Source: a virus. From it: a DNA stretch of 64,000 nucleotides. The translations under genes were made by a program, and so were the position numbers. The first letter of the stretch is position 1. Each line of letters starts with the position of its first letter. Below, piece after piece: positions 733 to 62,179 of this stretch. The DNA lies in the IMG/VR virus record IMGVR_UViG_3300033153_013649, positions 95,838 through 159,837 of that record. One strand, written 5' to 3'. Under the pieces are notes generated by a model that did no database searches, was not told where the DNA came from, and worked only from the letters and a program-made list of their open reading frames with translations.

Positions 733-924
733 ATGAGATATTCGGAATTAATTAGAGAAGCAATACACGAAGAAAAAGGCGATAAGAAGGAATATCAAGC
801 ATTTTTCAGAAAAGCTCTCAAAAAATTTGGTGTAACTGAACCAGATCAATTAGAAGGAGATAAGAAGAAAGAATTTTTTGATTATATCGATAAGAACTGG
901 AGCGCGAAATCAGAAACTGATTAG
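733..924 (+). CDS. Tagged putative internal protein with phage virion C-terminal motif
   Basis: 63 residues. The N-terminus M-R-Y-S-E-L-I-R-E fits the M-K-x-[YF]-x-E-[IF]-[IL]-x-E form of T4 capsid-targeting sequences. The rest (E-Y-Q-A-F-F-R-K-A-L-K-K-F-G-V and F-F-D-Y-I-D-K-N-W) is a short motif I know from the ends of many phage structural proteins. RBS AGGAAAAATA precedes the ATG. Likely a small protein packaged in the head and cut after the tag. Confidence 0.65.
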   Translation: MRYSELIREAIHEEKGDKKEYQAFFRKALKKFGVTEPDQLEGDKKKEFFDYIDKNWSAKSETD

Positions 925-943
925 AAAATTTATAAGGAAAAAT

Positions 944-1171
944 ATGAAATATAGAGAAATATTAAATGAAGGATTCTTTTCAGAATTTCAAATTGTAGCT
1001 GGGGATTATTTCGGGGATAAATTCGTAAAAGATATGATGAAGATCAGCCGGAAAGAATCAGATTTAGTAAAAATCATATTAGCTACGGCTAAAAAACATA
1101 AAATTGAAAAAGATAATCAGAAACTTAAAGCTTTATTAAAGATGGCTGGTATGGTAAAAGGAAATATATAA
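944..1171 (+). CDS. Tagged putative internal protein
   Basis: 75 residues starting M-K-Y-R-E-I-L-N-E, almost the same as the T4 IPIII signal M-K-T-Y-Q-E-F-I-A-E. I chose the ATG at 944 because it follows AAGGAAAAAT and puts the tag at the N-terminus; an upstream GTG-type extension would run into the preceding gene. The body is a Lys-rich helical sequence with no family I recognise. The stop overlaps the next start (TAATG). Confidence 0.65.
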   Translation: MKYREILNEGFFSEFQIVAGDYFGDKFVKDMMKISRKESDLVKIILATAKKHKIEKDNQKLKALLKMAGMVKGNI

Positions 1172-1293
1172 TGAATCATTCAGAAATATTAGAAGCAGAA
1201 TTAAAAGATGAAAAATTTTTTATTTATTTGATCAAAAACCGAATTATTAGAAAAAAATCAAAAGATCTTTTTAAAAAGAATAACAGAACTTAA
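1171..1293 (+). CDS. Tagged 40-residue peptide
   Basis: The ATG overlaps the previous stop (TAATG). The product starts M-N-H-S-E-I-L-E-A-E, a variant of the capsid-targeting tag, followed by about 30 mostly basic residues. It is very short, but the tag and tight coupling to its neighbours argue that it is translated. No family recognised. Confidence 0.5.
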   Translation: MNHSEILEAELKDEKFFIYLIKNRIIRKKSKDLFKKNNRT

Positions 1294-1296
1294 AAA

Positions 1297-1539
1297 ATGA
1301 AATATCAAGAAGCTTTAGAGAGTAGATTTGATATGAGTAGTCGTAAAAGGATTAAAAGAGATCCCAAAAAGATTATGGTTACTTTAAAAAAGAATTATCC
1401 AAATATTAAATTTGAATTGAAAGATAATGTTTTATATGGAAATAAAAATCAATTAGGATCTTATCATTATGGATCTGGAAACGAATCGATTCAAGCTATT
1501 ATAGCTAAAATGAAAATGTTAGGACTTATTAAAAAGTAA
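1297..1539 (+). CDS. Tagged putative internal protein
   Basis: 80 residues starting M-K-Y-Q-E-A-L-E-S, then a strongly basic segment (S-S-R-K-R-I-K-R-D-P-K-K) and a predicted alpha/beta remainder. A basic body after a targeting tag is what is seen in T4 internal proteins, which lie against DNA inside the head. Exact function unknown. Confidence 0.6.
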   Translation: MKYQEALESRFDMSSRKRIKRDPKKIMVTLKKNYPNIKFELKDNVLYGNKNQLGSYHYGSGNESIQAIIAKMKMLGLIKK

Positions 1540-1555
1540 AGGACCGAAAAATATT

Positions 1556-1978
1556 ATGAAATATAGAGAAATACTTGAAGGATTGAATCTTTCAGCTGCA
1601 ATTAAATCTCTTAAAATGGAAGAAGATCTTAAAACTCTTGCTAAAAAAAATCCGGGTAAAACAGGGAAACAATTAAAAAGAGAAATCATAACAATTGCTT
1701 CTAAATATATTGGAAAGTCTGAAATTAAAGATGTACATATTAAAGATCTAACACAGGAAGCTATAAAAGAATTTGATCGGATAATTAAAAAAGAAAAAAT
1801 AAGTGAAAAACTCGAACCTAATTGGATTATAGTTTTTAAGAATGGAAAAACTTTAGATATTAATAATGAACCAACAAACGTACCTTCTGAAACAGAGTAT
1901 TTTCAAACAGAGAAGGAAGCAATTAAGAGATTTAACAAGTTGAAGCTAAAAGGAAAAGCGGAAATAATAGAGGTATAA
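1556..1978 (+). CDS. Tagged putative internal protein, 140 residues
   Basis: Starts M-K-Y-R-E-I-L-E-G-L with RBS AAAGGACCG upstream. This is the largest protein of the first tagged cluster. A helical N-terminal half (A-I-K-S-L-K-M-E-E-D-L-K) is followed by a W-I-I-V-F-K-N-G-K-T-L beta-hairpin-like C-terminal half. I know no family match. Position between other tagged genes suggests it is co-packaged. Confidence 0.6.
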   Translation: MKYREILEGLNLSAAIKSLKMEEDLKTLAKKNPGKTGKQLKREIITIASKYIGKSEIKDVHIKDLTQEAIKEFDRIIKKEKISEKLEPNWIIVFKNGKTLDINNEPTNVPSETEYFQTEKEAIKRFNKLKLKGKAEIIEV

Positions 1979-1984
1979 AATAAA

Positions 1985-2134
1985 ATGAAATTCGGGGAGA
2001 TTGTGAATGAAGTAAATATTGATGCTATTAGATTAAATCAACTTACTAAATATGCTAGAACTAATAAAAAAGCTAAATATCAGATTTTAAAAAAGTTAAA
2101 AGAATTAATATTAAATATTGAAAAGGAAATCTAA
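1985..2134 (+). CDS. Tagged 49-residue peptide
   Basis: Product starts M-K-F-G-E-I-V-N-E-V-N, another tag variant, followed by a short helical Lys-rich segment ending L-N-I-E-K-E-I. The stop overlaps the next ATG (TAATG). Too small to assign a function beyond the shared tag. Confidence 0.55.
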   Translation: MKFGEIVNEVNIDAIRLNQLTKYARTNKKAKYQILKKLKELILNIEKEI

Positions 2135-2319
2135 TGAATTTTGGTGATATTATAAACGAAGCTGCTTATCCAGGAAATATTGGATTTCAAGAATTAATAA
2201 ATTTTTATCGTGTAGCAAATAAAACTCAGATGAAAAAAATGCAAAACCTTATCGAAAAAGAAGATTGGTTAGGATTTAAAAAATTAATTCGAAAAACCTT
2301 AGGGATTAATTTACAATAA
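2134..2319 (+). CDS. Tagged putative internal protein, 61 residues
   Basis: Starts M-N-F-G-D-I-I-N-E-A-A, a tag variant with an I-x-E cleavage-like site. The remainder forms two probable helices (F-Q-E-L-I-N-F-Y-R and M-K-K-M-Q-N-L-I-E-K). Overlaps the upstream gene by one base. No recognised family. Confidence 0.6.
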   Translation: MNFGDIINEAAYPGNIGFQELINFYRVANKTQMKKMQNLIEKEDWLGFKKLIRKTLGINLQ

Positions 2320-2340
2320 AATACAAAGAAGTTTTTTATT

Positions 2341-2592
2341 ATGAGATATTCGGAGATAATCGAAGAAGAAATTTTAAATGAAGGTAAACTCCTTACAGGA
2401 ATTATGATAGCTTTGGTATTATTTAAAGCTGCTGGAATGATTAATCGTACTGAATCAGATCCTATTACTCGTAAAGTTGCAGCAAAAATAACTAAATTAT
2501 CAGATGAAGAATTAGAAAAATTAAAATATAAATTTAATTTTAAAATTGATAAAAAAGAAGCAATTAAAACCTTAAAAAAATTGGGGTTCTAA
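2341..2592 (+). CDS. Tagged protein with a membrane-like segment
   Basis: 83 residues: tag M-R-Y-S-E-I-I-E-E-E-I-L-N-E-G (two possible (I/L)xE sites), then a hydrophobic stretch L-T-G-I-M-I-A-L-V-L-F-K-A-A-G at residues 17-32, then a charged helical tail. A hydrophobic segment is unusual for a T4 internal protein. It could act at the membrane during DNA entry; that is speculation. Confidence 0.6.
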   Translation: MRYSEIIEEEILNEGKLLTGIMIALVLFKAAGMINRTESDPITRKVAAKITKLSDEELEKLKYKFNFKIDKKEAIKTLKKLGF

Positions 2593-5167: not shown

Positions 5168-5173
5168 ATTATA

Positions 5174-9610: not shown

Positions 9611-9616
9611 ATAAAT

Positions 9617-10299: not shown

Positions 10300-10307
10300 A
10301 TATTAAC

Positions 10308-10386
10308 GGGGCACAGGACTGCTAGGGGTGGTCGTCTCATTTGCGATGAGAAAAATTTCAGGTGGGTTCGAATCCCACGTGCTCCA
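10308..10386 (+). tRNA. tRNA-Ala (UGC)
   Basis: Acceptor GGGGCAC/GTGCTCC, D stem GAC/GTC, anticodon stem TCTCA/TGAGA with loop TTTGCGA (anticodon TGC), T arm GTGGG-TTCGAAT-CCCAC. The variable loop is about ten bases, longer than normal for tRNA-Ala. Confidence 0.87.
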
Positions 10387-10436
10387 CAGATGGAAATTAT
10401 AGATCAGAAAAAAGAAAGAATAAAAAGGAAAAACTT

Positions 10437-10781: not shown

Positions 10782-10871
10782 GAATCATATTTTAGATTCT
10801 AGATTGAAATTCTGGGAATTAGAGATAAGATTCAATTCGGTGGTATTACTAAAGAGAAAAAGGATTATATT

Positions 10872-14574: not shown

Positions 14575-14624
14575 TATTGTAGTAGATAGTCTGAATAATT
14601 CGAACGATAAAACATTTTAAATTT

Positions 14625-14637
14625 GAGGATATATTTG
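14625..14637 (+). repeat. 13-bp direct repeat, right flank of the lysin insertion
   Basis: Exact copy of 13653-13665. In copy 2 it carries the ribosome site (GAGG) and TTG start. Confidence 0.8.
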
Positions 14638-18029: not shown

Positions 18030-18065
18030 TAGCTATTATTAGGATTATATTTTAAAGGAGAGACT

Positions 18066-35638: not shown

Positions 35639-37090
35639 ATGAAACGGTTTAAACAAATCTTTACTCGATGTGAAGAAATTATATTAGAGGAAAAATTATC
35701 CGGGGTTAGTAAAGATCAATTTGCTCTTCGAAAACATCTTAATGATAGAATTAAGAATGATTTGAAAATTAAGATCTTTAAGAGTTCACGTAAGAAGATT
35801 CCTCATATAAGAGCCCCTCTTGGAAAAACAGATGCAGAAGTAAGAGATAAAATCAATAAACTTGGAAGATATTTAATACAACCTGCTGAAATTCAAATAT
35901 CTGCTAAGTTTCCTACATTTGTAATTACTACCCTCGATGATATTAGATTTGGAAAAAAAGGTCTTATTCATAAAGGAACAGAAGTTTATTTTGTTAACAA
36001 TCAAGAAACTTCTGGATTAATCAAAAAGAAAGAAACTTCTCCCGCTGGATTAGGATTAGGAGGAATGGAAATCACTGTTAGTAATTATATTAATATTATA
36101 ATGCAAAGAGTAAATCATGTACTTTCTGATCGTAAACAAATCATTCCCTTCTTCGAAGAATTACTTAGAAAATCTGCAACTGGTCAAGCTGTAACAAAAT
36201 TCGATAAATCCTATGAAGATATTTCATCTTCTGATATTGCAAACCTTGCTAATGATTTTGGTGAAATCACTGGAGCTATATGGTATGCAAAAGTAAAAAA
36301 AGGTACTAAAATATTTTTTCCTTCTGCTTCAAATGAACCTTTAATTGATTATAAGGTGTTTATTCCTGTTGGTAAAGGGAAATCAAAACGATTAATTTGG
36401 CAGGATATTAGTGCAAAAGCTGGGGCTGGAGCAAGCCCGAGTATTTCAGGTATAATTAGTTCATTGAATAATAATCCAAAGCTCTTTCTTAAAGATGGTA
36501 AATCTGTTAATGAGAAATATGTCAAAGTAAAAGATTTTATTAATGCTATAAACAATGAAGGAGTAGTAGAAGGTATTCTTTCTGCAAATAGAATTATGGA
36601 TTCGAAAGGATATAAAGTGGTTCAGAAAATAATAGGAACTACTTTAATTACAGAATCTGTAATTATTGATTATATGAGTAAATTCACCGATTGGGATACA
36701 AATCTAGATCCGAAAAAGAATGCTAAATTTCATTTACTCAAATTATATGATGTAATAGGAAGGAAAATTAAAGCCGAAGAAGCACGTAAATTATTTGCTA
36801 TTACACGAGGTCTAGATCCGAAAACTCGTGGATCAAGATTAATGGGATATATTTCTGCCCCTCTTGGATATCATATTGTTGATATAGTAAATCAACTTCC
36901 AGAATTTAATAATTTTCTTAATGATGCTCTTCGAAGTATTCAAATAATTCAAATTTATATAAATATAACAAAACGACAGATTTCTTATAAAATTAAAGAC
37001 TTTAAAGAATCAAATTTTAAATGGAAATATTCTGGTAGTGCACCAAATCCAAAAGTGAAAAAAATTGGTTTTGAATTAAAGAAAAAATAA
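35639..37090 (+). CDS. Large tagged putative internal protein
   Basis: About 483 residues from ATG 35639 with AAGGAAGG upstream. Starts M-K-R-F-K-Q-I-F-T-R-C-E-E-I-I-L-E-E, the longer form of the tag shared with proteins at 37090, 38370 and 61301. The body has a distinctive W-Q-D-I-S-A-K-A-G-A-G-A-S-P-S-I segment, with A-K-x-G-x-G spacing that recalls nuclease-type phage proteins. That link is weak. First gene of the second tagged cluster; stop overlaps the next start. Confidence 0.6.
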   Translation: MKRFKQIFTRCEEIILEEKLSGVSKDQFALRKHLNDRIKNDLKIKIFKSSRKKIPHIRAPLGKTDAEVRDKINKLGRYLIQPAEIQISAKFPTFVITTLDDIRFGKKGLIHKGTEVYFVNNQETSGLIKKKETSPAGLGLGGMEITVSNYINIIMQRVNHVLSDRKQIIPFFEELLRKSATGQAVTKFDKSYEDISSSDIANLANDFGEITGAIWYAKVKKGTKIFFPSASNEPLIDYKVFIPVGKGKSKRLIWQDISAKAGAGASPSISGIISSLNNNPKLFLKDGKSVNEKYVKVKDFINAINNEGVVEGILSANRIMDSKGYKVVQKIIGTTLITESVIIDYMSKFTDWDTNLDPKKNAKFHLLKLYDVIGRKIKAEEARKLFAITRGLDPKTRGSRLMGYISAPLGYHIVDIVNQLPEFNNFLNDALRSIQIIQIYINITKRQISYKIKDFKESNFKWKYSGSAPNPKVKKIGFELKKK

Positions 37091-37788
37091 TGAATAGATT
37101 TAAGGAAATATATTTTTCTGAACCTTTATTAGAAGGAATTTATGATCCATCTATATTTAAAGGAATATTTATAGCTGGAGGCTCTGGTAGTGGAAAGAGT
37201 TTTATTACCGGGAAAGTAGTTCCCGGGCACGGATTTAAAATAATCAATTCAGATATTTTATTTGAAAGAATGATGAAGAAAGCTAATTTAGATCTTGATT
37301 TAGAAAAATTAAATACTAAACAACTTATCAAAAAGGATGAAATAAGAGCAAGAGCAAAAGAATTAACATTAAAAACAAAAAATAGATTTATTAAAAATCA
37401 CTTAGGATTAGTGATAGATGGTACAGGTCGAGATACGACTGTTATTGAACTACAAAAAAGAAGATTAGAATCTAACGGATATGATACTTTTATGATCTTT
37501 GTTAATACTTCTTTAGAGGTTGCTTTAGAAAGAAACGCTAATAGATTAAGAAAATTACCGGAAGATATGATAAAGAAATTTTGGAAAGATACTCAGAAAA
37601 ATATTGGCAGATATCAAAATATGTTTGGACCCTCGAATTTTTTAATTATAGATAATAATCATGTAGATGAAAAAATTTTAAATAAAGTTTGGAAATTAAT
37701 TAGTAAATTTGAAAAGAAACCAATTCAAAACCCAATTGCTAAAAATTTTATTGAAGCAGATAAAATAACGAGAGGAATAAAACAATGA
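37090..37788 (+). CDS. Tagged P-loop kinase, zeta-toxin-like
   Basis: 232 residues. Tag M-N-R-F-K-E-I-Y-F-S-E-P-L-L-E, then F-I-A-G-G-S-G-S-G-K-S-F-I (Walker A at residues 29-36), N-S-D-I-L (substrate Asp), L-V-I-D-G-T-G-R-D and a late R-L-R-K-L lid. This follows the zeta-toxin/polynucleotide-kinase branch. Zeta toxins phosphorylate UDP-sugars of the cell wall; other members act on nucleotides. As a packaged enzyme it could be injected with the DNA. Confidence 0.78.
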   Translation: MNRFKEIYFSEPLLEGIYDPSIFKGIFIAGGSGSGKSFITGKVVPGHGFKIINSDILFERMMKKANLDLDLEKLNTKQLIKKDEIRARAKELTLKTKNRFIKNHLGLVIDGTGRDTTVIELQKRRLESNGYDTFMIFVNTSLEVALERNANRLRKLPEDMIKKFWKDTQKNIGRYQNMFGPSNFLIIDNNHVDEKILNKVWKLISKFEKKPIQNPIAKNFIEADKITRGIKQ

Positions 37789-38117
37789 AATATAAAGAAA
37801 TTTTAAATGAAAAAATGAATCAAGAACATCATTATTTTGATGAACGATCGAAGAAATATATTCTTGCTGTTGGACCAAATCTTTATGAAGCTCGTAAAAT
37901 CGTAACTGGAAAGATAGGAGAAGAGCCAAAAAACGAAGTTATATTTGTAAAAATGGATTCTTCAGATGAAAAGAAAGCATTTCGACAGTTAGGGAAAGAT
38001 CTTCAACTTATAAAAAGAAAAGATTTTTTAAAGAAAATTTCTAAAAATTGGGGTATAAAAATTAACAATATTCATACAAGTACAAGATTATCAAAATTAG
38101 ATCTAAGAGAACTTTAA
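37785..38117 (+). CDS. Tagged putative internal protein
   Basis: 110 residues starting M-K-Y-K-E-I-L-N-E-K, the tag form closest to T4's. The body holds Y-I-L-A-V-G-P-N-L-Y-E-A-R-K and E-V-I-F-V-K-M-D-S-S. Overlaps the kinase gene by four bases, so the two may act together, for example as enzyme and inhibitor (speculative). Confidence 0.6.
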   Translation: MKYKEILNEKMNQEHHYFDERSKKYILAVGPNLYEARKIVTGKIGEEPKNEVIFVKMDSSDEKKAFRQLGKDLQLIKRKDFLKKISKNWGIKINNIHTSTRLSKLDLREL

Positions 38118-38119
38118 AT

Positions 38120-38365
38120 ATGAAATATAAAGAAATTCTTGAAAAGCAATGGCTTAAAGATGTTAAACCAAAATATCATCCTCCTGAAGGAACTTTTACA
38201 AAAAAAGCTGCTGCAATTGCGGCTCAATTATTAAAAGATTCTTCTTCTCCAGCTCAAGCAATGCAAAGATTAAATTTTTACATTAATCGTGCAGGAAAAG
38301 ATTTAACAAATAAAGCTGAATTAGAAAAAGCCAAAGACATTATTTCGAAAAAAATAGAATCATAA
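38120..38365 (+). CDS. Tagged putative internal protein
   Basis: 81 residues starting M-K-Y-K-E-I-L-E-K-Q. The rest is helical: K-K-A-A-A-I-A-A-Q-L-L-K-D-S-S-S-P-A-Q-A, A-E-L-E-K-A-K-D-I-I. No family match. Confidence 0.6.
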   Translation: MKYKEILEKQWLKDVKPKYHPPEGTFTKKAAAIAAQLLKDSSSPAQAMQRLNFYINRAGKDLTNKAELEKAKDIISKKIES

Positions 38366-38369
38366 TAAA

Positions 38370-38855
38370 ATGGTCAAATTTAAAGAAATATATTTAGATC
38401 CAAGGAGTATTCCAGAACCAACGGAGAAACAGATTAAATCTGGAAAATATCCAAAAAGATTAATTAAATGGCACGGATTAAAAATTCGAATTGAAAACGA
38501 AGAGGGAACAATCAGAAGAGGAATTGGACCCGATGGGATTCCTTGGGAAACAGAATTCAAGTATCCATACGGATATATCGAAGGATTCAAAGGATTAGAT
38601 AAAGATGAATTAGATGTATTTGTTGGTCCTTTAATTAACTTTCCTCCAGCAAATAAAGTATATATTGTTAATCAGGTTAAAGATGACGGATCACCAGACG
38701 AAGAAAAAATTATTATAGGAGTCGATAGTAAAGATTCTGCTAAAAAAGTATATCTTTCAAATTATGAAATAGGATGGAAAAATTATAGAAAAATAGAAGA
38801 AATGAGTATTAGAGAATTTTTATTATGGATACATAATAAAAACAATAGATCTTAA
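38370..38855 (+). CDS. Tagged inorganic pyrophosphatase-like protein
   Basis: 161 residues. Tag M-V-K-F-K-E-I-Y-L-D-P. Then Y-P-Y-G-Y-I-E-G-F-K-G-L-D-K-D-E-L-D-V-F, V-G-P and V-Y-I-V-N-Q-V-K-D-D-G, with D-E-E-K and a late Y-L-S-N-Y. This is the pyrophosphatase-like domain found in phage polyvalent proteins, where it accompanies other DNA-entry domains. The acidic residues of the metal site are kept. An injected pyrophosphate or nucleotide hydrolase is a reasonable guess. Confidence 0.7.
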   Translation: MVKFKEIYLDPRSIPEPTEKQIKSGKYPKRLIKWHGLKIRIENEEGTIRRGIGPDGIPWETEFKYPYGYIEGFKGLDKDELDVFVGPLINFPPANKVYIVNQVKDDGSPDEEKIIIGVDSKDSAKKVYLSNYEIGWKNYRKIEEMSIREFLLWIHNKNNRS

Positions 38856-38870
38856 TAGGAAATAAAAAAT

Positions 38871-38924
38871 ATGAACTGCCGAGATTCAAAGAAACTAAAG
38901 AAAGAACGAGAAAATCTTGGATAA
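38871..38924 (+). CDS. Possible 17-residue leader peptide
   Basis: ATG-starting frame, K/R-rich, whose stop lies eight bases inside the radical SAM gene. It may serve to couple translation to the TTG start of that gene. Confidence 0.3.
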   Translation: MNCRDSKKLKKERENLG

Positions 38925-40050
38925 AAAAAAGCAAAAAATAATGATTAAGGAGGAGTGGTCAAGTCCGTATAATCCATTTAATACATTTAAAGCTTTAATT
39001 TGGAGAGAATGGTTTGAAGGGATTGTAAACGGAGAATTTTTACCCCCTGTTACATTAGATACAGATCCTTCTAATATTTGTAATTTTAAATGTATATGGT
39101 GTAACTCCTATCAAATTCATTGTAAAGATCAGATGTTACCCGAAGAACATCTTATTGCTCTTGCAAAATTTTATGGTGAATGGGGAATTAAATCTACATG
39201 CGTTGCTGGGGGAGGTGAGCCTCTAACAAATCCAGGATTCAATAATTTTATAATACATTTATCTAAGAACAAAGTACAGTCAGGAGTAGTAACTAATGGT
39301 TCACTTATGACTGACGATCATATAAATACTATAGTCCGCAACTCTCGTTTTTGTGGATTTTCAATGGATGCTGGTAAACCAGAAACGTATGCTAAAGTGA
39401 AAGGTCTAAGGAAAAAACAAGGGGAACAAATCTTTATAAAGGTAGTTGATAATATTGCAAAGATGGCCAAAGAAGCATCGAAATTTAAATCTGAATTTAG
39501 AATAGGATATAAATATCTTATTCACCCAGATAATGCTCTTGAAATATACGATGCTGCTGTTCTGGCTAAAAATCTTGGAATTGATGATTTTCACCTAAGA
39601 CCCGTTGGCTGGGATAATATTAACATTACTAGAAAAAAGGATCCAATTTCTTTTAAAGGATTATTAGATGAAATAAATGACCAGATCCAACGCGCGCTGG
39701 AGTTAGAAGACAACAAATTCAAATTCTTTGGAGTGAGACATAAGTTTAGTCCAGATATGAAAAAGAAAGTTAACTTCTCTAAATGTCGAGCATTACCATT
39801 ACATCTAACTTTTGGAGCTGATGGAAACGTACATTTATGCTTTGACAGAAGGGGGGATAAAGATTTAATACTATGTAAACATTTCCCAGAAGTTAAAGAA
39901 GTACTTACTGTTTGGGGTTCAGATTATCACAAGGAAATGATGGATAAAATAAATCCGGAAAAAGACTGTCCAAGGTGTACTCTCGGTCCCCATCAGGAAA
40001 TAATAGAAAAAGTATTCATGAAAGATGATATGTGCAGAATGTTTCCATAA
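38917..40050 (+). CDS. Radical SAM enzyme with C-terminal Cys cluster
   Basis: 377 residues, TTG start (ATG 38941 is an alternative). N-I-C-N-F-K-C-I-W-C is the C-x3-C-x2-C cluster motif; V-A-G-G-G-E-P-L-T-N-P is the SAM-binding GGE motif; V-V-T-N-G-S follows. Near the end C-P-R-C-T-L-G and earlier C-R-A, C-F-D suggest a SPASM-type second cluster, used on peptides and other large substrates. It has no tag but lies inside the tagged cluster. It may modify one of the neighbouring proteins. Confidence 0.82.
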   Translation: MDKKKQKIMIKEEWSSPYNPFNTFKALIWREWFEGIVNGEFLPPVTLDTDPSNICNFKCIWCNSYQIHCKDQMLPEEHLIALAKFYGEWGIKSTCVAGGGEPLTNPGFNNFIIHLSKNKVQSGVVTNGSLMTDDHINTIVRNSRFCGFSMDAGKPETYAKVKGLRKKQGEQIFIKVVDNIAKMAKEASKFKSEFRIGYKYLIHPDNALEIYDAAVLAKNLGIDDFHLRPVGWDNINITRKKDPISFKGLLDEINDQIQRALELEDNKFKFFGVRHKFSPDMKKKVNFSKCRALPLHLTFGADGNVHLCFDRRGDKDLILCKHFPEVKEVLTVWGSDYHKEMMDKINPEKDCPRCTLGPHQEIIEKVFMKDDMCRMFP

Positions 40051-40060
40051 TGATGGATTT

Positions 40061-40068
40061 TATAAATA
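40061..40068 (+). promoter_or_regulatory. Possible T4-type late promoter TATAAATA
   Basis: The octamer lies 23 bases before the tagged gene at 40092, in a short intergenic gap. Late expression would suit internal proteins. Chance occurrence cannot be excluded. Confidence 0.45.
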
Positions 40069-40091
40069 ATATTATAAAAAGATAAATTATA

Positions 40092-40490
40092 ATGAAATAT
40101 TCGGAAGTATTAGTTTTAATTGAAGCTAGATCTGGATCTCAAGATACCTTCAAAGTTATGAAAAATTTTATATTCACAAATAGTATAAGTGGTACAAGAA
40201 AAAAATTAAAATCTTGGGAAATAGATCCAAAATATTCAAACAAATTAACAATTATAGCGTTTGAAAAAGGAACAGGAAATCTAGTAGTCGCAGAAGAAGG
40301 AGACGAAAACACAGAAGATTTTGTTTTAGTAGAAAAAGACCAATGGGAAAAAGCTCTTAAAGAAAAAGCCATAAAGCAGATTGGAAATAATTATAATGAA
40401 TTTTTAAATTGGCTTAAAGAAGGAGGGATTAATCCAAAAGGTTATTTATTAGATTTAAAAGATGCTTTCGGGAAAACTTTTAAATATTAA
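40092..40490 (+). CDS. Tagged protein, paralogue of 42257 product
   Basis: 132 residues starting M-K-Y-S-E-V-L-V-L-I-E-A. It shares S-Q-D-T-F-K-V-M-K-x-F and a matching alpha/beta body with the 196-residue protein at 42257. No outside family recognised. The tag's cleavage site would be L-I-E. Confidence 0.6.
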   Translation: MKYSEVLVLIEARSGSQDTFKVMKNFIFTNSISGTRKKLKSWEIDPKYSNKLTIIAFEKGTGNLVVAEEGDENTEDFVLVEKDQWEKALKEKAIKQIGNNYNEFLNWLKEGGINPKGYLLDLKDAFGKTFKY

Positions 40491-40533
40491 AAATTATGAG
40501 AAAACCTTTTAAAACAAAATAAGGTAAATTATA

Positions 40534-41043
40534 ATGAAATATTCTGAAATATTAGCAGAAGCAAATAAAAAACCTAAAGTTCCATCTAGAGTACCAAAAA
40601 CCCTCAAAGAAGTTTATAAGGCTTGGGGATCTATTCCAAAAACGCATGAAGAAGCCGTTGAGATGATGCATTGGTTTGGTAAAACATTTTCTAAAAAATT
40701 AAATAAAGAAGTTTTTGAAGTAACCAAAAAATGTATTGTTGAATCTTATGCTTGGGGCCCCTTTGAATGTGATGAAGGAGGTATTACTGATGCTTGGTGG
40801 AAAAAAGCATTCTTAGATTCAGCGTATGATGAAGAATATATAGAAGAAACAAAATTATATGCTAAAGCTAATAAAATGTCAGTTGATAAAATTCGAAAAA
40901 TCTGGAGTAAAGTTAAAGAGAATGTAGATGCTAATAATTTTATTCGGATGATGGATTGGATAACAGACGAATATGATGAACCGGCTATTTATTATTTATA
41001 CGTTAAAATGCCTACTTCTACCAATATGGATATTGGATATTAA
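40534..41043 (+). CDS. Tagged putative internal protein
   Basis: 169 residues starting M-K-Y-S-E-I-L-A-E-A-N. A well-ordered body with H-E-E-A-V-E-M-M-H-W-F-G-K-T-F, acidic patches and aromatic clusters (F-E-C-D-E-G-G, A-W-W-K-K-A-F). Stop overlaps the next start. Probably a folded enzyme or binding protein of unknown type. Confidence 0.6.
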   Translation: MKYSEILAEANKKPKVPSRVPKTLKEVYKAWGSIPKTHEEAVEMMHWFGKTFSKKLNKEVFEVTKKCIVESYAWGPFECDEGGITDAWWKKAFLDSAYDEEYIEETKLYAKANKMSVDKIRKIWSKVKENVDANNFIRMMDWITDEYDEPAIYYLYVKMPTSTNMDIGY

Positions 41044-42260
41044 TGCGAAATAGATTCAAACAAATCCTAAACGAATTAGTACATTTAGAGTACGAATATC
41101 GCGATCAGGGTAAAGAATTTATTAATAAATTATTTAATAAATTTGTTACTGTTACTGTGAAAGTTGATTTTGCTGCTCTTGCTGTAGAGAATACGGGTAG
41201 AAAAATCACGTATTGGGGAAGAGAAGGAAAGAAAGAAATAACTCCGGTCATTCGTAAGTCTTTTGATTATTATGAAGATGCTATTGCTTATTTAGAAACT
41301 AAAAACCTCACTAAGATCATTCCACCTGGTTGGAAAATATATTTCGAAATGGCTAATAATTACAACTTCGGCGCCATGGGAAATATGGTTATAGCTTATC
41401 CAAAACGTCCAAAAAATAATTTAGTCCTTAACTATGCTACAGATGGTTCAGGGAAACGTATTGTTCCTTCTGATCCAAAAGTACTTAAAATAGCAAAAGA
41501 TCTTGACGTGCATCCTCCAGTGGTATTGTTTGCTGGAAAATTAAACGGAGCACAGAAAAAGAAGATTCTCGACTTTTTCAATATGAACGAAGACGAAAGA
41601 AGAGATAAACTGGGGCATGAGAATTTTACTAACTATTTCGTCTCTCTCTTTAATTCTAAATTCTCTGGAATGATGGGAACTAGAATTATGGAAGGGCTAG
41701 TATTCTATTTCAATAATGATGAAAACGATGTTTATATGGCTAAGGTTATCGATCCAATGTTTAAAATCGAACACACCCTCTCCGGAGATGATCCACGTAC
41801 AGTAAAACTTAGAGAACTTGAAAATCGCAAACGGGGATGGTTCAAACAAATGGTGGGATGGATAAATAAAAATAGGGGTAAAATTAAAGTTCTTATAAGA
41901 AAAGTACAAATTCCTGATAATATTGTTGACTATGATGATAAATTTTTGTATATTATGGATGAAACAGCTTACCAATTATGGCTAAGAAATCTCAAACAAA
42001 AAATGGAGAAGGAATTTGAAGGTTACGTTGACGAAGAAAAGAACTTCAGAAATTTCAACTGGAAAGAATTTACAAACCCGCAACTCATATCTGAACTTAA
42101 AAAGAACGATGTTCTTAAATTATTTTACCGTGTATTTTCTGTTGTTTATTACCAAGAGCATAAAAGAGGATCCGGGAAAATCGGAGACAAGGAAAGTGTT
42201 GCAAAAATCAATGACCTAGCAAAATTCATCAAACAACATATTGAAAAGAGATTAAAATGA
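41043..42260 (+). CDS. Large tagged putative internal protein
   Basis: 405 residues starting M-R-N-R-F-K-Q-I-L-N-E-L, a hybrid of the two tag forms. It has an N-terminal alpha/beta region (F-V-T-V-T-V-K-V-D-F) and a helical C-terminal half rich in Lys and aromatic residues. Overlaps genes on both sides. I recognise no catalytic motif. Confidence 0.6.
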   Translation: MRNRFKQILNELVHLEYEYRDQGKEFINKLFNKFVTVTVKVDFAALAVENTGRKITYWGREGKKEITPVIRKSFDYYEDAIAYLETKNLTKIIPPGWKIYFEMANNYNFGAMGNMVIAYPKRPKNNLVLNYATDGSGKRIVPSDPKVLKIAKDLDVHPPVVLFAGKLNGAQKKKILDFFNMNEDERRDKLGHENFTNYFVSLFNSKFSGMMGTRIMEGLVFYFNNDENDVYMAKVIDPMFKIEHTLSGDDPRTVKLRELENRKRGWFKQMVGWINKNRGKIKVLIRKVQIPDNIVDYDDKFLYIMDETAYQLWLRNLKQKMEKEFEGYVDEEKNFRNFNWKEFTNPQLISELKKNDVLKLFYRVFSVVYYQEHKRGSGKIGDKESVAKINDLAKFIKQHIEKRLK

Positions 42261-42847
42261 AATATAAAGAAATATTAACAAAAGTTAAATCTAGAACTTC
42301 CTCTGGATCTGAAAAGGAAACATCACCACCTAAAGTTAAAATAAGATCTCAAGATACTTTCAAAGTTATGAAAAAATTTACATTTACAGATGTTACAATT
42401 GGAAGGCACCTTCCTCATGGCGGTGATAGGGGTAAGGCGGCGAAATTTTGGAAAATAAGCCCTAATCATCCAAGTAAATTAATGGTTTTAGCGTTTGATA
42501 TCAAATCTGGAGACTGTGTAGTAATAGATTATAATATAGTAAAATCAAAAGTAAAAAAAGCAGCTTTATATAAATATTTTTTAGTAAAAAAAGAAGAACT
42601 AGAAAGAGCTTTAGAAGAAGAAGCTCTAGAGTTTCTTGGTAATTTTAAAGGAGATTTTTTAAAGTGGATAGAAAAAGATAGAATTTTAAATTATTATCCT
42701 GATCAAGAATTATTTTATAGATCTCCCAAAATTTATAAATCTATGTTAGATAGAGCTATAGAAGGATTAGATGCAGTAGGTTTTTTATATTATTTAAAAT
42801 CAGAAATTTTTTTCTTTAGTAATCGATCCCTTAATTTCAAATATTAA
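42257..42847 (+). CDS. Tagged protein, paralogue of 40092 product
   Basis: 196 residues starting M-K-Y-K-E-I-L-T-K-V. After a Ser-rich linker it has S-Q-D-T-F-K-V-M-K-K-F-T-F-T, matching the 40092 product, with an inserted loop (H-L-P-H-G-G-D-R-G) and a longer C-terminus. The pair implies duplication inside the cluster. Confidence 0.6.
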   Translation: MKYKEILTKVKSRTSSGSEKETSPPKVKIRSQDTFKVMKKFTFTDVTIGRHLPHGGDRGKAAKFWKISPNHPSKLMVLAFDIKSGDCVVIDYNIVKSKVKKAALYKYFLVKKEELERALEEEALEFLGNFKGDFLKWIEKDRILNYYPDQELFYRSPKIYKSMLDRAIEGLDAVGFLYYLKSEIFFFSNRSLNFKY

Positions 42848-42862
42848 AAACAAGAGATTAAA

Positions 42863-43066
42863 ATGAGATATAAAGAAATATTAGAAAAATCCAAAAACTT
42901 ATCAATGCTAGATAAGCGCCAAATATCTATAGCAAAAAAAACTTTAAGTATGCCTGATGCAATGGGAGGAGTTATGGGAGGACCTAGTAAAAGAGAAGCT
43001 CGAGAAATTTTAATAAAATTTGGATATTCTGATAAAGAAATTAAAAAATTGGAAAAAGGGAAATGA
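42863..43066 (+). CDS. Tagged putative internal protein
   Basis: 67 residues starting M-R-Y-K-E-I-L-E-K-S, then A-M-G-G-V-M-G-G-P-S-K-R-E-A-R-E, a Gly-rich loop before a helix. No family match. Confidence 0.6.
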   Translation: MRYKEILEKSKNLSMLDKRQISIAKKTLSMPDAMGGVMGGPSKREAREILIKFGYSDKEIKKLEKGK

Positions 43067-43068
43067 AA

Positions 43069-43428
43069 ATGAAATATAAAGAATTAAATCAATCTTTAAA
43101 TGAAGGGGTCAAAATAAAAGAAGAATGGATGTCTGAATATGGAGTTGGATATATTGAAATTGATGGAGCTGAATCTCAACATGGAACTCTTAAAGGAAGA
43201 ATTGATAGTGGATATACTACCGATGGAAAAGCAAGTATAGAAATTTCTACATCTGCTCAAAATTTCAAAATAAACTTTAAGCCCCCTAAATTTACAAATA
43301 AAGAATCTCGCAGCGAAGCAAATGCATGGGTTGCTGAAAGACTTGATAATATGAAAAAAGATCTTCTTAAATTAAAGGGAGATTTTGATAAAAAAGCTAT
43401 AACTATAGCAAAAAAATATTCAAAATAA
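43069..43428 (+). CDS. Tagged putative internal protein
   Basis: About 119 residues. The ATG at 43069 is preferred because it lies nine bases after AAAGGG and gives M-K-Y-K-E-L-N-Q-S-L-N-E; an ATG two codons earlier is possible. The body is beta-rich (Y-I-E-I-D-G-A-E, K-G-R-I-D-S-G-Y-T) followed by a long helix. Confidence 0.6.
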   Translation: MKYKELNQSLNEGVKIKEEWMSEYGVGYIEIDGAESQHGTLKGRIDSGYTTDGKASIEISTSAQNFKINFKPPKFTNKESRSEANAWVAERLDNMKKDLLKLKGDFDKKAITIAKKYSK

Positions 43429-43473
43429 GAAAGAATTTCATAAGAAGATTTAGAATAAGTTATTTAAGAAATA

Positions 43474-44067
43474 ATGAAACGCTTTTTTTCTGAAATATTT
43501 AACGAAGCTCTCGATAAGAAAGAATTAGTACAAGCTTCTAAACCTGCAGTATTAATACAAGGTAGATTTCAACCTCTTACTTTAGGTCATACTACAGCAG
43601 CAAAAAATTTAATGAAAAAACATCCAGGAGGAAAACTAATCTTTGGAGTAGTCAGAGGCTTAGGAAGCTCAGAAAACAAAGAATTAAATCCTTTTTCTTT
43701 TAAAGAACAATCAAAATTTATTAAAAAAGTATTTCCTCAAGCGGTAATTATGGAATTCAAAAATGGATTTACCCCTGATAATATTCTCGAAGCTAGAAAA
43801 AAAGGATTTGAAATTATAGCTTTTATTGCTGGGGAAGATAGAATAAAAAGTTATAAAGAACAATTGAAATATTTTGATAAAATAAAAAGAGAAAATCCAG
43901 ATTTCGAAAAGCCTCAAGCAGTTCCAATCGGTATAAAAAGAGTTGGGGATATTTCAGCTACTAAAGTAAGAGAAGCTATAAGAAACAATGAAGAGAAAAT
44001 CTTCCGAGCTAATATGCCTAAAGCTCTTTATGATGAATTCGAATTTATGAAAAAAATAATCAAATGA
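43474..44067 (+). CDS. Tagged nucleotidyltransferase (NMN/nicotinate adenylyltransferase-like)
   Basis: 197 residues. Tag M-K-R-F-F-S-E-I-F-N-E-A-L. Then V-L-I-Q-G-R-F-Q-P-L-T-L-G-H-T: G-R-F-Q-P with the T-x-G-H site of cytidylyl/adenylyltransferases, and near the end I-S-A-T-K-V-R-E-A-I, the I-S-x-T-x-x-R site. This pairing is typical of NadM-type NMN adenylyltransferases and relatives such as FAD or CTP-using enzymes. If it makes NAD, injection could restore NAD in a host that is depleting it. The exact substrate is inferred. Confidence 0.82.
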   Translation: MKRFFSEIFNEALDKKELVQASKPAVLIQGRFQPLTLGHTTAAKNLMKKHPGGKLIFGVVRGLGSSENKELNPFSFKEQSKFIKKVFPQAVIMEFKNGFTPDNILEARKKGFEIIAFIAGEDRIKSYKEQLKYFDKIKRENPDFEKPQAVPIGIKRVGDISATKVREAIRNNEEKIFRANMPKALYDEFEFMKKIIK

Positions 44068-44207
44068 AAAAATCAGAAAAACCAAAAAAGAAAAAATCTT
44101 CTAGATCTGGATATCGATTTAAAGATTTATTAAAAGAACAAGATATTTTACTTATACATAAAATTCAAAATTCTCTTAGAGAAAACGAAAAAGAAAACCA
44201 AAAATAA
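44064..44207 (+). CDS. Small basic protein with internal tag-like motif
   Basis: 47 residues: a Lys/Ser-rich start (K-K-S-E-K-P-K-K-K-K-S-S-R-S-G), then Y-R-F-K-D-L-L-K-E-Q, a tag-like segment placed inside, then an amphipathic helix. Overlaps the nucleotidyltransferase gene by four bases. Confidence 0.5.
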   Translation: MKKSEKPKKKKSSRSGYRFKDLLKEQDILLIHKIQNSLRENEKENQK

Positions 44208-44220
44208 AAAAAGAAAAAAG

Positions 44221-44619
44221 ATGACAATTTTCAGAGAAGCTTTAAACGAAAATAAAAATCGAATTACTAAAGCTATGCCAAGATCTTTGAAAAATAAGAT
44301 AATGAACGAAATTTACAAAAAAGTTCTCACAAATAAAACTTTTAAAGAAATTCCAATTAGTAAAATTTCAGAGATTTTCGAAAAACATGGCGCCGTTTTA
44401 CTTCAAGAGGATTATACTCCTTGGGCAGGCTTTTTACTTGGTTCAGAAGGAAGCGCTTCTATTATGATAGGAGACAAAAATCTCGGGCATCCCTTATCAG
44501 AAGAGAAATTTAATTCTTCGGGAGAATTCTGGTTTCCTCAATTCAAAAACGCTTGGTTTCAAATTCAATGGTATAAGTTACCGTCCGGGAATTATGAAAT
44601 AACTGCATATATTAGTTGA
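44221..44619 (+). CDS. Tagged putative internal protein
   Basis: 132 residues starting M-T-I-F-R-E-A-L-N-E-N, a divergent tag with an A-L-N-E site. The body has K-H-G-A-V-L-L-Q-E-D-Y-T-P-W-A-G-F-L-L-G and W-F-P-Q-F-K-N-A-W-F-Q-I-Q-W. Its end overlaps the next promoter. Last gene of the second cluster. Confidence 0.55.
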   Translation: MTIFREALNENKNRITKAMPRSLKNKIMNEIYKKVLTNKTFKEIPISKISEIFEKHGAVLLQEDYTPWAGFLLGSEGSASIMIGDKNLGHPLSEEKFNSSGEFWFPQFKNAWFQIQWYKLPSGNYEITAYIS

Positions 44620-57332: not shown

Positions 57333-59180
57333 GTGGATCTTTTTAATTGGTTAAAAAGAAACAAAGAAGACGATTTTAAATCAGATGCAGAAAGAGATAT
57401 ATCTAATGTTGGTGTTGATACTAAAGATATATCCTATGATTTAGCTGCATCTGCTAATGATTACATACCAAATATAGTTGGAACTCATTCTTCAGGAGTA
57501 TTTACTGGAGCATTTGGAGGATTATATTTAAGTCAAACTAAAAATACTTTTCCTCTTTATGCTATGCATGCTCTTGTAAAATCATATCAATGGATGGCTC
57601 AAGATCCAGATATAAATTTTGCAATCGATGAAATTATTAATGAAATGACCGTAACAGATGATAAAGATGAAATATTAGATTTAAATCTAGATAAACTCGA
57701 TTTTCAAGATAATATTAAAGAAAAAATGTTAGAAGAATTTAAAGTTATAATAAATCTTTTAGATTTTAATAATACAGCACATATTCAACTTCATAATTTT
57801 TTCGTAAACGGTAGGGTATTTTATAAAATAGATGTTAATAAAAAACGAATAGAAGAAGGTATTAAAGAAATAAAAAATATTTCCCCTTTTGATGTAGTTG
57901 CTTATTTTGACGGAGAAGGTGTAGCTAGTGTTACGGGTACAAAAAAACCAATTAATACTAAAGGAGAGCCAATTAGTTTTCAAGAAGGATATATAATTAC
58001 AGAAAATGCTTTTAGAAGTATTTATAATCTAGGTCTTACTTCTACTGCATTTGTACATCAAAAGGAATCACAAAAATTTACTAAAGAATATTTTGCTATC
58101 CCTAAAGAGCTAATGATATATCAACATTCCGGTCTTATTGATTGGAGATACAACGTTCCAATTTCTCATTTACAACTTGTCTTAAAAACTTTAAATCAGC
58201 TTAGATTACTTCGAGATGCAATGATTATTTATCGCCTTACTCGAGCACCCGAACGCTTTTTATTCAACGTTGAAGTTGGAAAAATGCCACCTACTAAAGC
58301 TCAGGAATATGTCGAAAAAGTATCTCATGCCTTAAAACAAAATATTGTTTATGATCCAGAACTTGGAACTTTTAAAGACGAATCTGATAAATTATCAATT
58401 TATAAAGATTGGTTTTTCCCTCAACAAGATGGAAAAGGAACTTCTGTAGAAACTATTCAATCTAATAACATGACAGAACAGCTAGAAGAAGTTCAAGAAT
58501 TACAGAGAACTTTATATCGTCAACTTAAGATTCCCTTTCAAAGATTTTTACAAGAAGATGGAGTAAGAATATTTTCTAACGAAGGAGAAATTGAATATTC
58601 AGAAATAAAATTTTACAAATACATAAAGAAACTTCAGATTCAATTCAACTTTGTAATCAAAGAGTTGTTCAAAAAACAATTAGTAATGAAAAAAATTATT
58701 GATGCTGATACTTTTGATAAAATAAAGAACGATATTAAAGTACTTTGGGGATCTGAAAATATATATCAAAAAACAAAAGAAATTGGAATTCTTCGTAGAA
58801 AAATTGCTCTTCTAAGTGAAATTCAGGAACATGTTGGAAGATATGGTATTAGCGAAGAATGGATAATAAAATATATTATGAGATTTAATGCAGAAGAAAT
58901 TAAAGAAGCAGAAAAAATTATTATTGATGAACTTAAAAAAGAAAATTATAAACAACAAATTCGAGATGGAGATATAAAATTCAACGAAAACGGAGAAGAG
59001 ATGGTCGAAGATGACGAGACAGGTGAAATGATAACCAAAAAGGAAAGAGAAAAACGGAATAAAGAAAAAGCAGCAGCAGAAGAAAAACCAGAAGAAGAGG
59101 AAGAACCGGAAGAAGAGGAAGAGGAAGAAGGGGAAGAGGAAGAAGAGGAGGAAGAACCAGAAGAAAAGAAAGAAGGTTAA
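57333..59180 (+). CDS. 20: Portal protein gp20
   Basis: 615 residues, GTG start after AAAAAGGATAATAAC. D-P-D-I-N-F-A-I-D-E-I-I-N-E-M (typical portal wing), F-V-N-G-R-V-F-Y-K-I-D, W-R-Y-N-V-P-I-S-H-L-Q and R-L-T-R-A-P-E-R-F follow T4 gp20 (524 residues). The extra length is a C-terminal tail of almost pure Glu with Pro and Gly. It forms the dodecameric DNA gate at the head vertex. Confidence 0.9.
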   Translation: MDLFNWLKRNKEDDFKSDAERDISNVGVDTKDISYDLAASANDYIPNIVGTHSSGVFTGAFGGLYLSQTKNTFPLYAMHALVKSYQWMAQDPDINFAIDEIINEMTVTDDKDEILDLNLDKLDFQDNIKEKMLEEFKVIINLLDFNNTAHIQLHNFFVNGRVFYKIDVNKKRIEEGIKEIKNISPFDVVAYFDGEGVASVTGTKKPINTKGEPISFQEGYIITENAFRSIYNLGLTSTAFVHQKESQKFTKEYFAIPKELMIYQHSGLIDWRYNVPISHLQLVLKTLNQLRLLRDAMIIYRLTRAPERFLFNVEVGKMPPTKAQEYVEKVSHALKQNIVYDPELGTFKDESDKLSIYKDWFFPQQDGKGTSVETIQSNNMTEQLEEVQELQRTLYRQLKIPFQRFLQEDGVRIFSNEGEIEYSEIKFYKYIKKLQIQFNFVIKELFKKQLVMKKIIDADTFDKIKNDIKVLWGSENIYQKTKEIGILRRKIALLSEIQEHVGRYGISEEWIIKYIMRFNAEEIKEAEKIIIDELKKENYKQQIRDGDIKFNENGEEMVEDDETGEMITKKEREKRNKEKAAAEEKPEEEEEPEEEEEEEGEEEEEEEEPEEKKEG

Positions 59181-60349: not shown

Positions 60350-60775
60350 ATGATAAGGTTTAAAGAATTATTCAAGAAAAAAATGATAGAAGAAGGGGAG
60401 GAAAGCGTTTCTTCTTACAGCTCTTCTGGAGCAGAAAATACGGATATAGCGAGAGCTCCCGCGCGTATCGGTAAAAAGAAGAAAAAGATTTTAAAAAAAG
60501 AAATTCCGAGTGTATCTGAAAAACTATTCGATCAATCATTACTTCCAACTGGATATGTTTTTGTAGGAAAATCTGATAAAGAAGTTTCTGTCCGAACATT
60601 AAAATATCCCGGTTTGGATATTTTTATCCAATATGATAAAAATGATAATATTACTTTTTTTAGAGTATATGATTGGGAAAAAGAAGAAACAAACCTATTT
60701 TTATATAAAAACGGAAAAGTAAAGGAATCTAAAGGTAAAGGAAGATTGATTGCTAAAGATTTTGGATTAATTTAA
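60350..60775 (+). CDS. Tagged putative internal protein in head operon
   Basis: 141 residues starting M-I-R-F-K-E-L-F-K-K-K-M-I-E-E-G, a tag variant with an M-I-E-E site. A Ser-rich then Lys-rich linker leads to a small alpha/beta domain (L-P-T-G-Y-V-F-V-G-K-S). Its place among head genes supports a head role for the tag. Confidence 0.55.
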   Translation: MIRFKELFKKKMIEEGEESVSSYSSSGAENTDIARAPARIGKKKKKILKKEIPSVSEKLFDQSLLPTGYVFVGKSDKEVSVRTLKYPGLDIFIQYDKNDNITFFRVYDWEKEETNLFLYKNGKVKESKGKGRLIAKDFGLI

Positions 60776-61300: not shown

Positions 61301-62179
61301 ATGAAAAGATTTAAACAAATATATTTAGATCCTATATTAGAACTAAGTGAAAAATCAACAGTCTATCATAGAAATACAGCCAATTTAAAAATTGGTTCAA
61401 TAATGACTGCAGCTAAAGCTAAAAAAGGTGGAAAGCATTGGTTAGCTAGAAGAGAAGATGAACAATTAATAGAAGATATAAGAAGGAAATATTATAAAAA
61501 TAAACCGTCTAGATTCGATTGTATATACTCATCTGTAATTCCAAAAGCTAGATTCATGTCAAAAGGAGCTTTATATGAATTGAAACCTCTTGGAAAAATG
61601 CACATGACTAATTCAAAAATAATCGATGATATGAGTACTCTTAAGGATCTTGATGATAAAATTGCTGCAGCTCACAAATATTGGAATCCTAGTAGCGATT
61701 TTTTAACAAAAAGAAATATAATTGATATTGAAGTGTTATCAGATAAAGCGTTAGTTTTAAGAAAAGTTGATGATGAATGGAATAATGGAGATAGAGTAAG
61801 ATTAAAAACAGAGTGTACAGTTATTTGGTACGCGTACGGTCTCGATGATAATACAAAGTTATCTGATGAAGAAATAGAACAAATATTAAAACACAAGAGT
61901 ATTAAATCCTATGAAGAAGAACAAGGTATATCCGCTAGATATAAAGTAACATTTAAAAAAGGCACTAAAGGAGAAATATCAAGAGTCAAATATACAGATA
62001 AAGAAAGAAGAAGTCCTGATTCTGGTCCTAGGAAGTATCTTGTAAGATTTGATCAATTAGATTTAAGAATAGATGGAATAAAAAATACTAATTTTAGTTT
62101 TCATCCTTTTTATGTTACAGCAAAAGGGCAAAAACCAGAACAATCTCAGAGAGTAGAGTATTTTCTTGAAAAGATTTAA
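61301..62179 (+). CDS. Tagged protein with probable ADP-ribosyltransferase-like fold
   Basis: 292 residues. Tag M-K-R-F-K-Q-I-Y-L-D-P-I-L-E-L-S-E. Then T-V-Y-H-R-N-T-A-N (Tyr-His-Arg opening), K-P-S-R-F-D-C-I-Y-S-S and A-L-Y-E-L-K-P-L-G-K-M-H, a layout I associate with ART-like proteins that open with a H/R and carry Y-E-L/V later. T4's packaged Alt is an ART as well. The fold call rests on short motifs only and no E-x-E pair is certain. Confidence 0.55.
   Translation: MKRFKQIYLDPILELSEKSTVYHRNTANLKIGSIMTAAKAKKGGKHWLARREDEQLIEDIRRKYYKNKPSRFDCIYSSVIPKARFMSKGALYELKPLGKMHMTNSKIIDDMSTLKDLDDKIAAAHKYWNPSSDFLTKRNIIDIEVLSDKALVLRKVDDEWNNGDRVRLKTECTVIWYAYGLDDNTKLSDEEIEQILKHKSIKSYEEEQGISARYKVTFKKGTKGEISRVKYTDKERRSPDSGPRKYLVRFDQLDLRIDGIKNTNFSFHPFYVTAKGQKPEQSQRVEYFLEKI

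Follow-up and report, generated by a model that had tools for sequence, protein, structure and literature searches.

The 64-kb window analysed here (the whole stretch of 64,000 nucleotides, positions 95,838 to 159,837) is the final part of the virus record IMGVR_UViG_3300033153_013649 from IMG/VR, which comprises 159,837 bases with a G+C content of 29%. Fourteen consecutive genes on the + strand occupy positions 35639-44619 of the window, to which all coordinates refer unless the record is named, and ATGA-type overlaps join genes at 37785, 41043, 42257 and 43063. A single leader design opens thirteen of them. The leaders, here also called tags, very probably identify these genes and further tagged genes of the record as a T4-type cargo set of internal proteins (IPs), which are addressed to the phage head by a capsid-targeting sequence. 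An earlier note on this DNA had reported tagged starts at 35639, 37090, 38370, 40092, 41043, 42257 and 43474, and all of them are present. The cluster consists of the following genes, with lengths in amino acids (aa) and a slash at the predicted cut:

35639..37090, +, tagged 483-aa protein, leader MKRFKQIFTRCEEIILE/E, with distant Kyanoviridae homologues
37090..37788, +, tagged P-loop kinase, leader MNRFKEIYFSEPLLE/GIYDP
37785..38117, +, tagged 110-aa protein, leader MKYKEILNE/K
38120..38365, +, tagged 81-aa protein, DUF3175-like (PF11373, E = 5.8e-7), leader MKYKEILE/K
38370..38855, +, tagged InPase, a type I pyrophosphatase of the polyvalent-protein type, leader MVKFKEIYLDPRSIPE/P
38917..40050, +, radical SAM / SPASM-like protein of 377 aa (PF04055, E = 2.7e-15), without leader
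40092..40490, +, tagged paralogue A, leader MKYSEVLVLIE/A
40534..41043, +, tagged 169-aa protein, leader MKYSEILAE/A
41043..42260, +, tagged 405-aa protein, leader MRNRFKQILNE/L, with untagged homologues in huge phages (L108, L109)
42257..42847, +, tagged paralogue B, leader MKYKEILTKVK, no clear [LI]xE
42863..43066, +, tagged 67-aa protein, leader MRYKEILE/K
43069..43428, +, tagged 119-aa protein, leader MKYKELNQSLNE/G, in an open reading frame (ORF) that opens at 43063
43474..44067, +, tagged HIGH-superfamily nucleotidyltransferase, NMNAT/cytidylyltransferase-like, leader MKRFFSEIFNE/A
44221..44619, +, tagged 132-aa protein, leader MTIFREALNE/N

The leader follows the design M-(K/R)-x(0-1)-[F/Y]-x-x-hydrophobic pair-x-E, or has [LI]xE further on, and the radical-SAM gene 38917 is the one exception within the cluster. 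The whole 160-kb record contains 28 tagged genes, which together encode 4,426 aa and make up 8.4% of the record. Outside the cluster, six are found in a first tagged cluster at the beginning of the window, two near the portal gene and seven elsewhere in the record. With random placement of the window's 21 tagged genes among its 101 + strand ORFs, the probability of 13 tagged genes among the 14 of the cluster is P = 3e-10. The record-derived leader pattern, which was drawn by eye from the window's own leaders, matches 28 of 211 + strand ORF starts but only 4 of 624 internal methionines (Fisher p = 6e-14). Given that origin, a second pattern that follows the T4 sequence MKTYQEFIAE in register was also applied. 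It matches 14 of the 211 starts versus 5 of the 624 internal methionines (p = 1e-5), and the 14 are mostly the same genes as the 28. A second feature, not used in picking the leaders, is a tripeptide [LIVM]xE whose last residue falls at positions 8-18. It is present in 25 of the 28 tagged and in 33 of 141 untagged genes (p = 5e-11), whereas the same tagged proteins contain it in just 4 of 22 cases 60 residues further in. Applied to a 150-kb stretch of T4, the T4-register pattern selects 6 of 424 mechanically called ORFs, including IPII and IPIII; in this strict form it misses IPI, whose leader has the longer form MKTFKEFTSTTTPVSTITE/A. T4 gp61.1 (gene 61.1; L025 18966-19130) also begins with a sequence that fits the capsid-targeting pattern, MKTFKEFIKE/D, and its gene lies between genes 61 and 41, an interval holding virion proteins in cyanophages.

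The tagged genes of the window outside the cluster and the portal gene are:

733..2592, +, first tagged cluster of six small genes (733, 944, 1297, 1556, 2134, 2341)
57333..59180, +, portal protein of the T4 gp20 family (phrog_213, E = 1e-110), head-assembly context
60350..60775, +, tagged 141-aa protein 3' of the portal gene, leader MIRFKELFKKKMIE/E
61301..62179, +, tagged 292-aa protein near the portal gene, leader MKRFKQIYLDPILE/L, with a weak match to DUF2441 (PF10386, E = 5e-5, under the curated cut-off)

The repeated leader might be a local feature of translation starts or of duplication, with AT-rich starts such as ATGAAATATAAAGAAATT being copied together with the ribosome site. The starts of 37785 and 42257 are 81% alike over 45 bases of DNA, and K, Y, E and I are favoured by AT-rich codons. 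However, gene 38917 and the replication and tail genes do without the leader, the cleavage motif occurs at variable distance and in varied sequence, other phages show the same design with other residues, and tagged homologues occur in virions. This explanation is considered very improbable.

The capsid-targeting sequence of T4, MKTYQEFIAE/A, has been proven experimentally; targeting to the capsid depends on its residues 4 and 7, and cleavage on residues 8 and 10 (PMC9026906). In the present leader, the corresponding positions are taken by the aromatic residue, the hydrophobic residue and x-E. For IPIII, it is known that exchange of the aromatic residue abolishes packaging and that a change of E to D blocks cleavage. 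The record also encodes a Peptidase_S77 prohead protease (profile match, E = 3e-15), a gp22-type T4_CASP scaffold (E = 1e-18) and a Gp23 capsid protein (E = 9e-79). Directly before the mature domain, the Gp23 precursor carries AGLTE/VASS, an L-x-E type site like those of the leaders. The T4 register and the co-occurrence of S77 protease, scaffold and Gp23 speak against the idea that the tags address another destination in the infected cell, such as the membrane or a replication compartment, or that the protease cuts them incidentally, as do the tagged relatives that mass spectrometry detected in virions; such a role is extremely unlikely. The T4 late-promoter core TATAAATA is found at 40061, 31 bases upstream of the tagged gene 40092, at 57304, upstream of the portal gene, and at record positions 1098, 2086, 13051 and 16824, upstream of the scaffold, capsid, sheath and tube genes. 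Since this 8-mer is not enriched across the record, it hints only weakly at late promoters.

The tagged kinase 37090 allows the leader to be followed into other viruses. Its homologues in named phages are few (Pelagibacter phage HTVC008M, 50% identity; Methylophilales phage Melnitz, 45%; Atu_ph07, 39%), and an alignment of these led to at least 574 IMG/VR stretches that encode the kinase family. Kinase starts in cultured relatives read MIPFILKE/GLYDP and MKTFAELQE/GVYDP. Eighty of them were fetched, 70 with a readable full gene, and in all 70 the leader ends with [LIVM]xE right before a conserved G-x-[YN]-D. Numbers of this size point to a large uncharacterised pool of candidates for injection. 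The 70 leaders comprise 49 distinct sequences of 8-14 residues; position P3 is L in 51, I in 17, V in 1 and M in 1, P2 varies freely, and an aromatic residue stands at residues 3-6 in 67. In the kinase contigs, leaders occur on the kinase, the nucleotidyltransferase, DUF6267 and a few hypothetical families, and are rare or absent on the remaining neighbour families. The marine contig L112 has four tagged genes in succession, starting with MYSFKQYLNE/A (DUF6267), MKTFLTFLEE (a second P-loop protein), MEVKSFTQQINE/G (kinase) and MRFKDFIKE/S. Thirteen kinase homologues in cellular genome bins have the same leader wherever the start is readable, and the inspected flanks appear viral, so these contigs probably come from viruses and do not represent untagged controls from hosts. 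Members of the Pfam family DUF6267, several of which are tagged, contain KWDGAPA, QGDL, EGYVAVD and VKLVDR in this order (L009 8242-9474), which by eye resemble the motifs of covalent nucleotidyltransferases (ligases).

Tagged enzymes have also been detected in virions. Mass spectrometry revealed an NMNAT-like protein in cyanophage S-SCSM1 (PMC9602691) and cytidylyltransferases in S-CREM2 (PMC10665884) and S-SM1 (PMC3037559), as described in passages of these papers that name no capsid-targeting sequence. The S-SCSM1 and S-CREM2 genomes were fetched partly or entirely, and the leaders were read from them. The S-SCSM1 NMNAT starts with MKSFLQFLKE/A; among the virion-detected proteins of S-CREM2, the cytidylyltransferase starts with MKNFSSFLTE/A, the SAM hydrolase with MKDFDSFLEE and the APH-like kinase with MKRFDAFLTE/E. 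The T4-register pattern is found on 4 of 28 detected non-structural proteins of S-CREM2 and on 2 of the 165 that went undetected (p = 0.004). This count excludes a detected Cas9-like protein with LRFASFMAE/A about 17 codons inside the annotated start. The cyanophage nucleotidyltransferases belong to the same superfamily as 43474, but with just 24-28% identity, their detection supports the class and is not proof for 43474 itself. Among the open-access papers searched, none was found that links the virion enzymes of cyanophages to capsid-targeting leaders, subscription papers being outside the scope of the search.

The three recognisable enzymes of the cluster had been named in the earlier note, and each assignment was borne out. 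The zeta-like P-loop kinase 37090 exceeds the Pfam cut-offs of AAA_17, AAA_33 and Zeta_toxin (the last with 28.4 bits). Its AlphaFold model, based on 30 sequences, has a predicted local distance difference test (pLDDT) score of 87.8 and is confident from about residue 20, while residues 1-14, the segment that cleavage would remove, are disordered. The invariant residues of the family are GxGSGK, D55, D110, R148, R152 and R154. In fold searches the model matched bacterial Pnk (2e-7), zeta toxin (6e-6) and T4 Pnk (3e-5), and the top four Foldseek hits were Pnk (template modelling score TMt 0.71-0.76). At the level of sequence profiles it is nearest to zeta toxin, its best PDB profile match, and adenylate kinases are also preferred. 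Judged from these matches, 37090 is a P-loop kinase of the Pnk/zeta type.

The pyrophosphatase-like protein 38370 matches PF18823 (InPase) with E = 4e-41 and 140 bits, against a cut-off of 26.8, over positions 1-134 of the 135 in the profile. Domains homologous to it occur within minor head, tail and DarB-like proteins of phages. Another InPase homologue makes up the C-terminus of gp19, the Pa193 portal protein (9b41, E = 1e-21), a part for which the structure shows no density. For InPase and zeta-like kinase domains, injection has been predicted where they form part of polyvalent phage proteins (PMC5512222). The nucleotidyltransferase 43474, noted previously for a T-x-G-H/I-S-x-T signature, matches CTP_transf_like (PF01467, E = 2e-5) and phrog_3041 (E = 5e-21) and has the motifs GRFQPLTLGH and ISATKVR. 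It is nearest to NMNAT models, yet far under their curated cut-off (22.6 versus 127 bits), and a PDB sequence search gave no match. It is assignable to the HIGH superfamily only.

These enzyme domains bear on the question of what the tagged proteins do once packaged. They could mainly serve the prohead, as core parts or in DNA condensation (cf. T4 IPIII, gp67 and gp68), without being effectors. T4 IPIII influences the rate of head assembly (PMC9026906). Moreover, many of the tagged proteins are small (61-141 aa), and some of their genes adjoin capsid genes (record 6455-10836; window 60350 and 61301). Some tagged proteins could indeed be head-core components. As an account of the whole set, a prohead role conflicts with the recognisable enzyme domains in three members, two of these domains being predicted effectors in other settings, and with the combination of a common leader and mutually unrelated cargo bodies. 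The only paralogue pair among the bodies of the cluster is 40092 and 42257, already recognised as paralogues in the earlier note (31% identity, E = 1.6e-12). A mainly structural role is unlikely, though by no means far-fetched.

The enzymes could also form a kit for RNA-end repair, or one for NAD+, against defences that cut tRNA or deplete NAD+, with a Pnk-like kinase, a HIGH nucleotidyltransferase, an InPase pulling the reactions forward and, possibly, 41043 as a ligase-like member. The best fold matches of the kinase, which are bacterial Pnk with T4 Pnk also among the hits, and the proximity of 43474 to NMNAT models would fit such a kit, as would the adjacent kinase and nucleotidyltransferase genes of HTVC008M and the ligase-like motifs KWDGAPA, EGYVAVD and VKLVDR seen by eye in the DUF6267 neighbours. 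On the other hand, the sequence profiles of the kinase prefer zeta toxin and adenylate kinases, the fold gives no substrate, and 41043 is not significantly similar to DUF6267 and has a poor single-sequence AlphaFold model (pLDDT 33.6). The repair kit is rather improbable. A ligase identity of 41043 was rejected as such, as it rested on motif resemblance only and hhalign to the DUF6267 alignment was not significant.

The two large proteins 35639 and 41043 are both tagged, as previously described. The start of 35639 is an ATG inside a longer TTG-started ORF that opens at 35633; its homologues in Phage C48C1 (E = 4e-25) and AG-345-F15 (E = 4e-11) both have a nucleotidyltransferase gene close by. 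Most of the remaining tagged proteins had no recognised relatives in the libraries searched, and no tagged protein matched the defence library at a meaningful E-value. In IMG/VR, no close relatives were found for 41043, the capsid protein, the nucleotidyltransferase, or the kinase and InPase as single queries; the kinase alignment alone led to relatives. The untagged radical SAM gene 38917 has weak viperin-like matches in the defence library and weak metalloenzyme-maturase-like matches. Near the start of the cluster, 33764-34684 encodes an untagged protein with an ArdC N-terminal domain and a polyvalent-type zincin (anti-restriction).

Several observations weigh against packaging and injection of the tagged proteins. 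Several of the leaders are imperfect: 1297 and 42257 lack [LIVM]xE, 43474 has FNE, and in many leaders K or L follows the cleavage site. The homologues of 35639 in C48C1 and AG-345-F15 appear untagged at the start as read, and the closest homologue of 43474 outside Kyanoviridae, in Stenotrophomonas phage Moby, is untagged. The E-G of the kinase may belong to its domain, as it is also found at an internal fusion boundary in Atu_ph07 (VTE/G). The authors of the S-CREM2 study (PMC10665884) allow for carry-over of such proteins in caesium chloride (CsCl) preparations, though the leader shared by the virion enzymes makes contamination less likely. Taken as a whole, packaging and injection appear well supported, and there is a high probability that the tagged proteins are packaged; we infer that this phage packages, cuts and injects the 13 proteins of the cluster and the other 15.

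Cargo delivery would then proceed as in T4. The aromatic and hydrophobic residues of the leader would dock the cargo into the prohead core formed by the gp22-type scaffold, and the S77 prohead protease would cut after [L/I]-x-E, at the site seen in the leaders, to free the mature protein in the head. DNA would be packed around this cargo, and at infection the two would pass out through the tail together; in T4, internal-protein cargo is ejected into the host with the DNA (PMC9026906). The cargo would include the Pnk/zeta-type kinase, the polyvalent-type InPase, the HIGH nucleotidyltransferase and about ten uncharacterised proteins. During the first minutes, it might tune the host's metabolism of nucleotides, NAD+ or RNA ends, or defence signalling tied to that metabolism, this being the most likely if weakly founded role. 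The earlier note had proposed that a toolkit of anti-host or anti-defence enzymes enters with the DNA before any gene is read. That the proteins are delivered with the virion is upheld by the T4 register, the protease, scaffold and capsid genes and the tagged cyanophage virion proteins. The view that they counter defence is speculative, and its probability as the main purpose is put at well under one half. InPase, kinase and nucleotidyltransferase could just as well act in the metabolism of nucleotides, NAD+ or RNA ends. Action ahead of all gene expression would follow only if ejection is T4-like.

Other parts of the record show further peculiarities. Intein-like C-terminal ends (VHNCG, SHNS and TKNS) are present at window 24825 and record 56006 and 91459, probably representing several inteins; the TKNS end at record 91459 lies just downstream of a gp41-type helicase. 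Two homing-endonuclease-like paralogues with 49% identity (record 3804-5294 and 17477-19114) follow the capsid gene and a tube-like gene, respectively. Another pair of paralogues, at window 13002-13703 and 14623-15291, contains GHRAFIIGGGPSLKGFDWKLLR, is possibly DUF115-like and is located near glycosyltransferase-like genes.

Compared with known systems, the tagged set most resembles the IPs of T4. Like IPI, IPII, IPIII and Alt, the proteins combine a leader of 10-19 residues (M-K-x-[YF]-x-E-hydrophobic pair-x-E), cut at [LI]xE by a gp21-type S77 protease, with unrelated bodies. T4 packages three IPs and one enzyme, Alt, whereas 28 tagged genes are present here, including the InPase, the Pnk/zeta-type kinase and the HIGH nucleotidyltransferase; no homologue of IPI or Alt was recognised among the families searched. 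The loading method of T4 is already known, but a tagged enzyme set this large has hardly been described. The number of cargo proteins and their enzymatic nature suggest an unusual variant of the T4 internal-protein system. The cyanophage virion enzymes (NMNAT/cytidylyltransferase, APH kinase and SAM hydrolase) come close to it, with T4-like leaders, detection in virions and, at the superfamily level, the same nucleotidyltransferase, although theirs differs from 43474 in being larger and having extra domains. A shared leader and protease site would explain both the T4 IPs and these enzymes, once called possible contamination, and the question of which phage genes are injected would become a sequence search.

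Agrobacterium phage Atu_ph07, a 490-kb jumbo phage, encodes about ten consecutive proteins starting with M[KR]WxQLxE or alike (L011 482-11590), one of which holds the same kinase domain at an xTE/G boundary. After the leader, most of these tandem proteins have a YRGM motif that looks ADP-ribosyltransferase-like by eye, possibly a second tagged arsenal. Phage P1 packages DarA, DarB and DdrB in its head and partly processes them, but uses other packaging signals and another protease system. Polyvalent proteins (Iyer et al. 2017, PMC5512222) share the InPase PF18823 and the zeta-like kinase with the present set, and an ArdC-MPTase gene lies near the cluster. In polyvalent proteins, the domains are fused in a long chain, often to MuF or portal, whereas here they are separate genes with leaders of their own and ArdC is untagged; each tagged protein has one recognised domain, not the several fused effector domains by which polyvalent proteins are defined. 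In effect, payloads that other phages deliver in fused form would here travel as single proteins, each with its own address. It is conceivable, but doubtful, that the leader is a delivery code across T4-superfamily phages by which any gene behind it is injected, here more than two dozen proteins including an RNA-end, NAD+ and nucleotide kit that pre-empts fast defences. On that view, phages would have two ways of bringing the same payloads into the host, one by polyvalent proteins and one by capsid-targeted operons.

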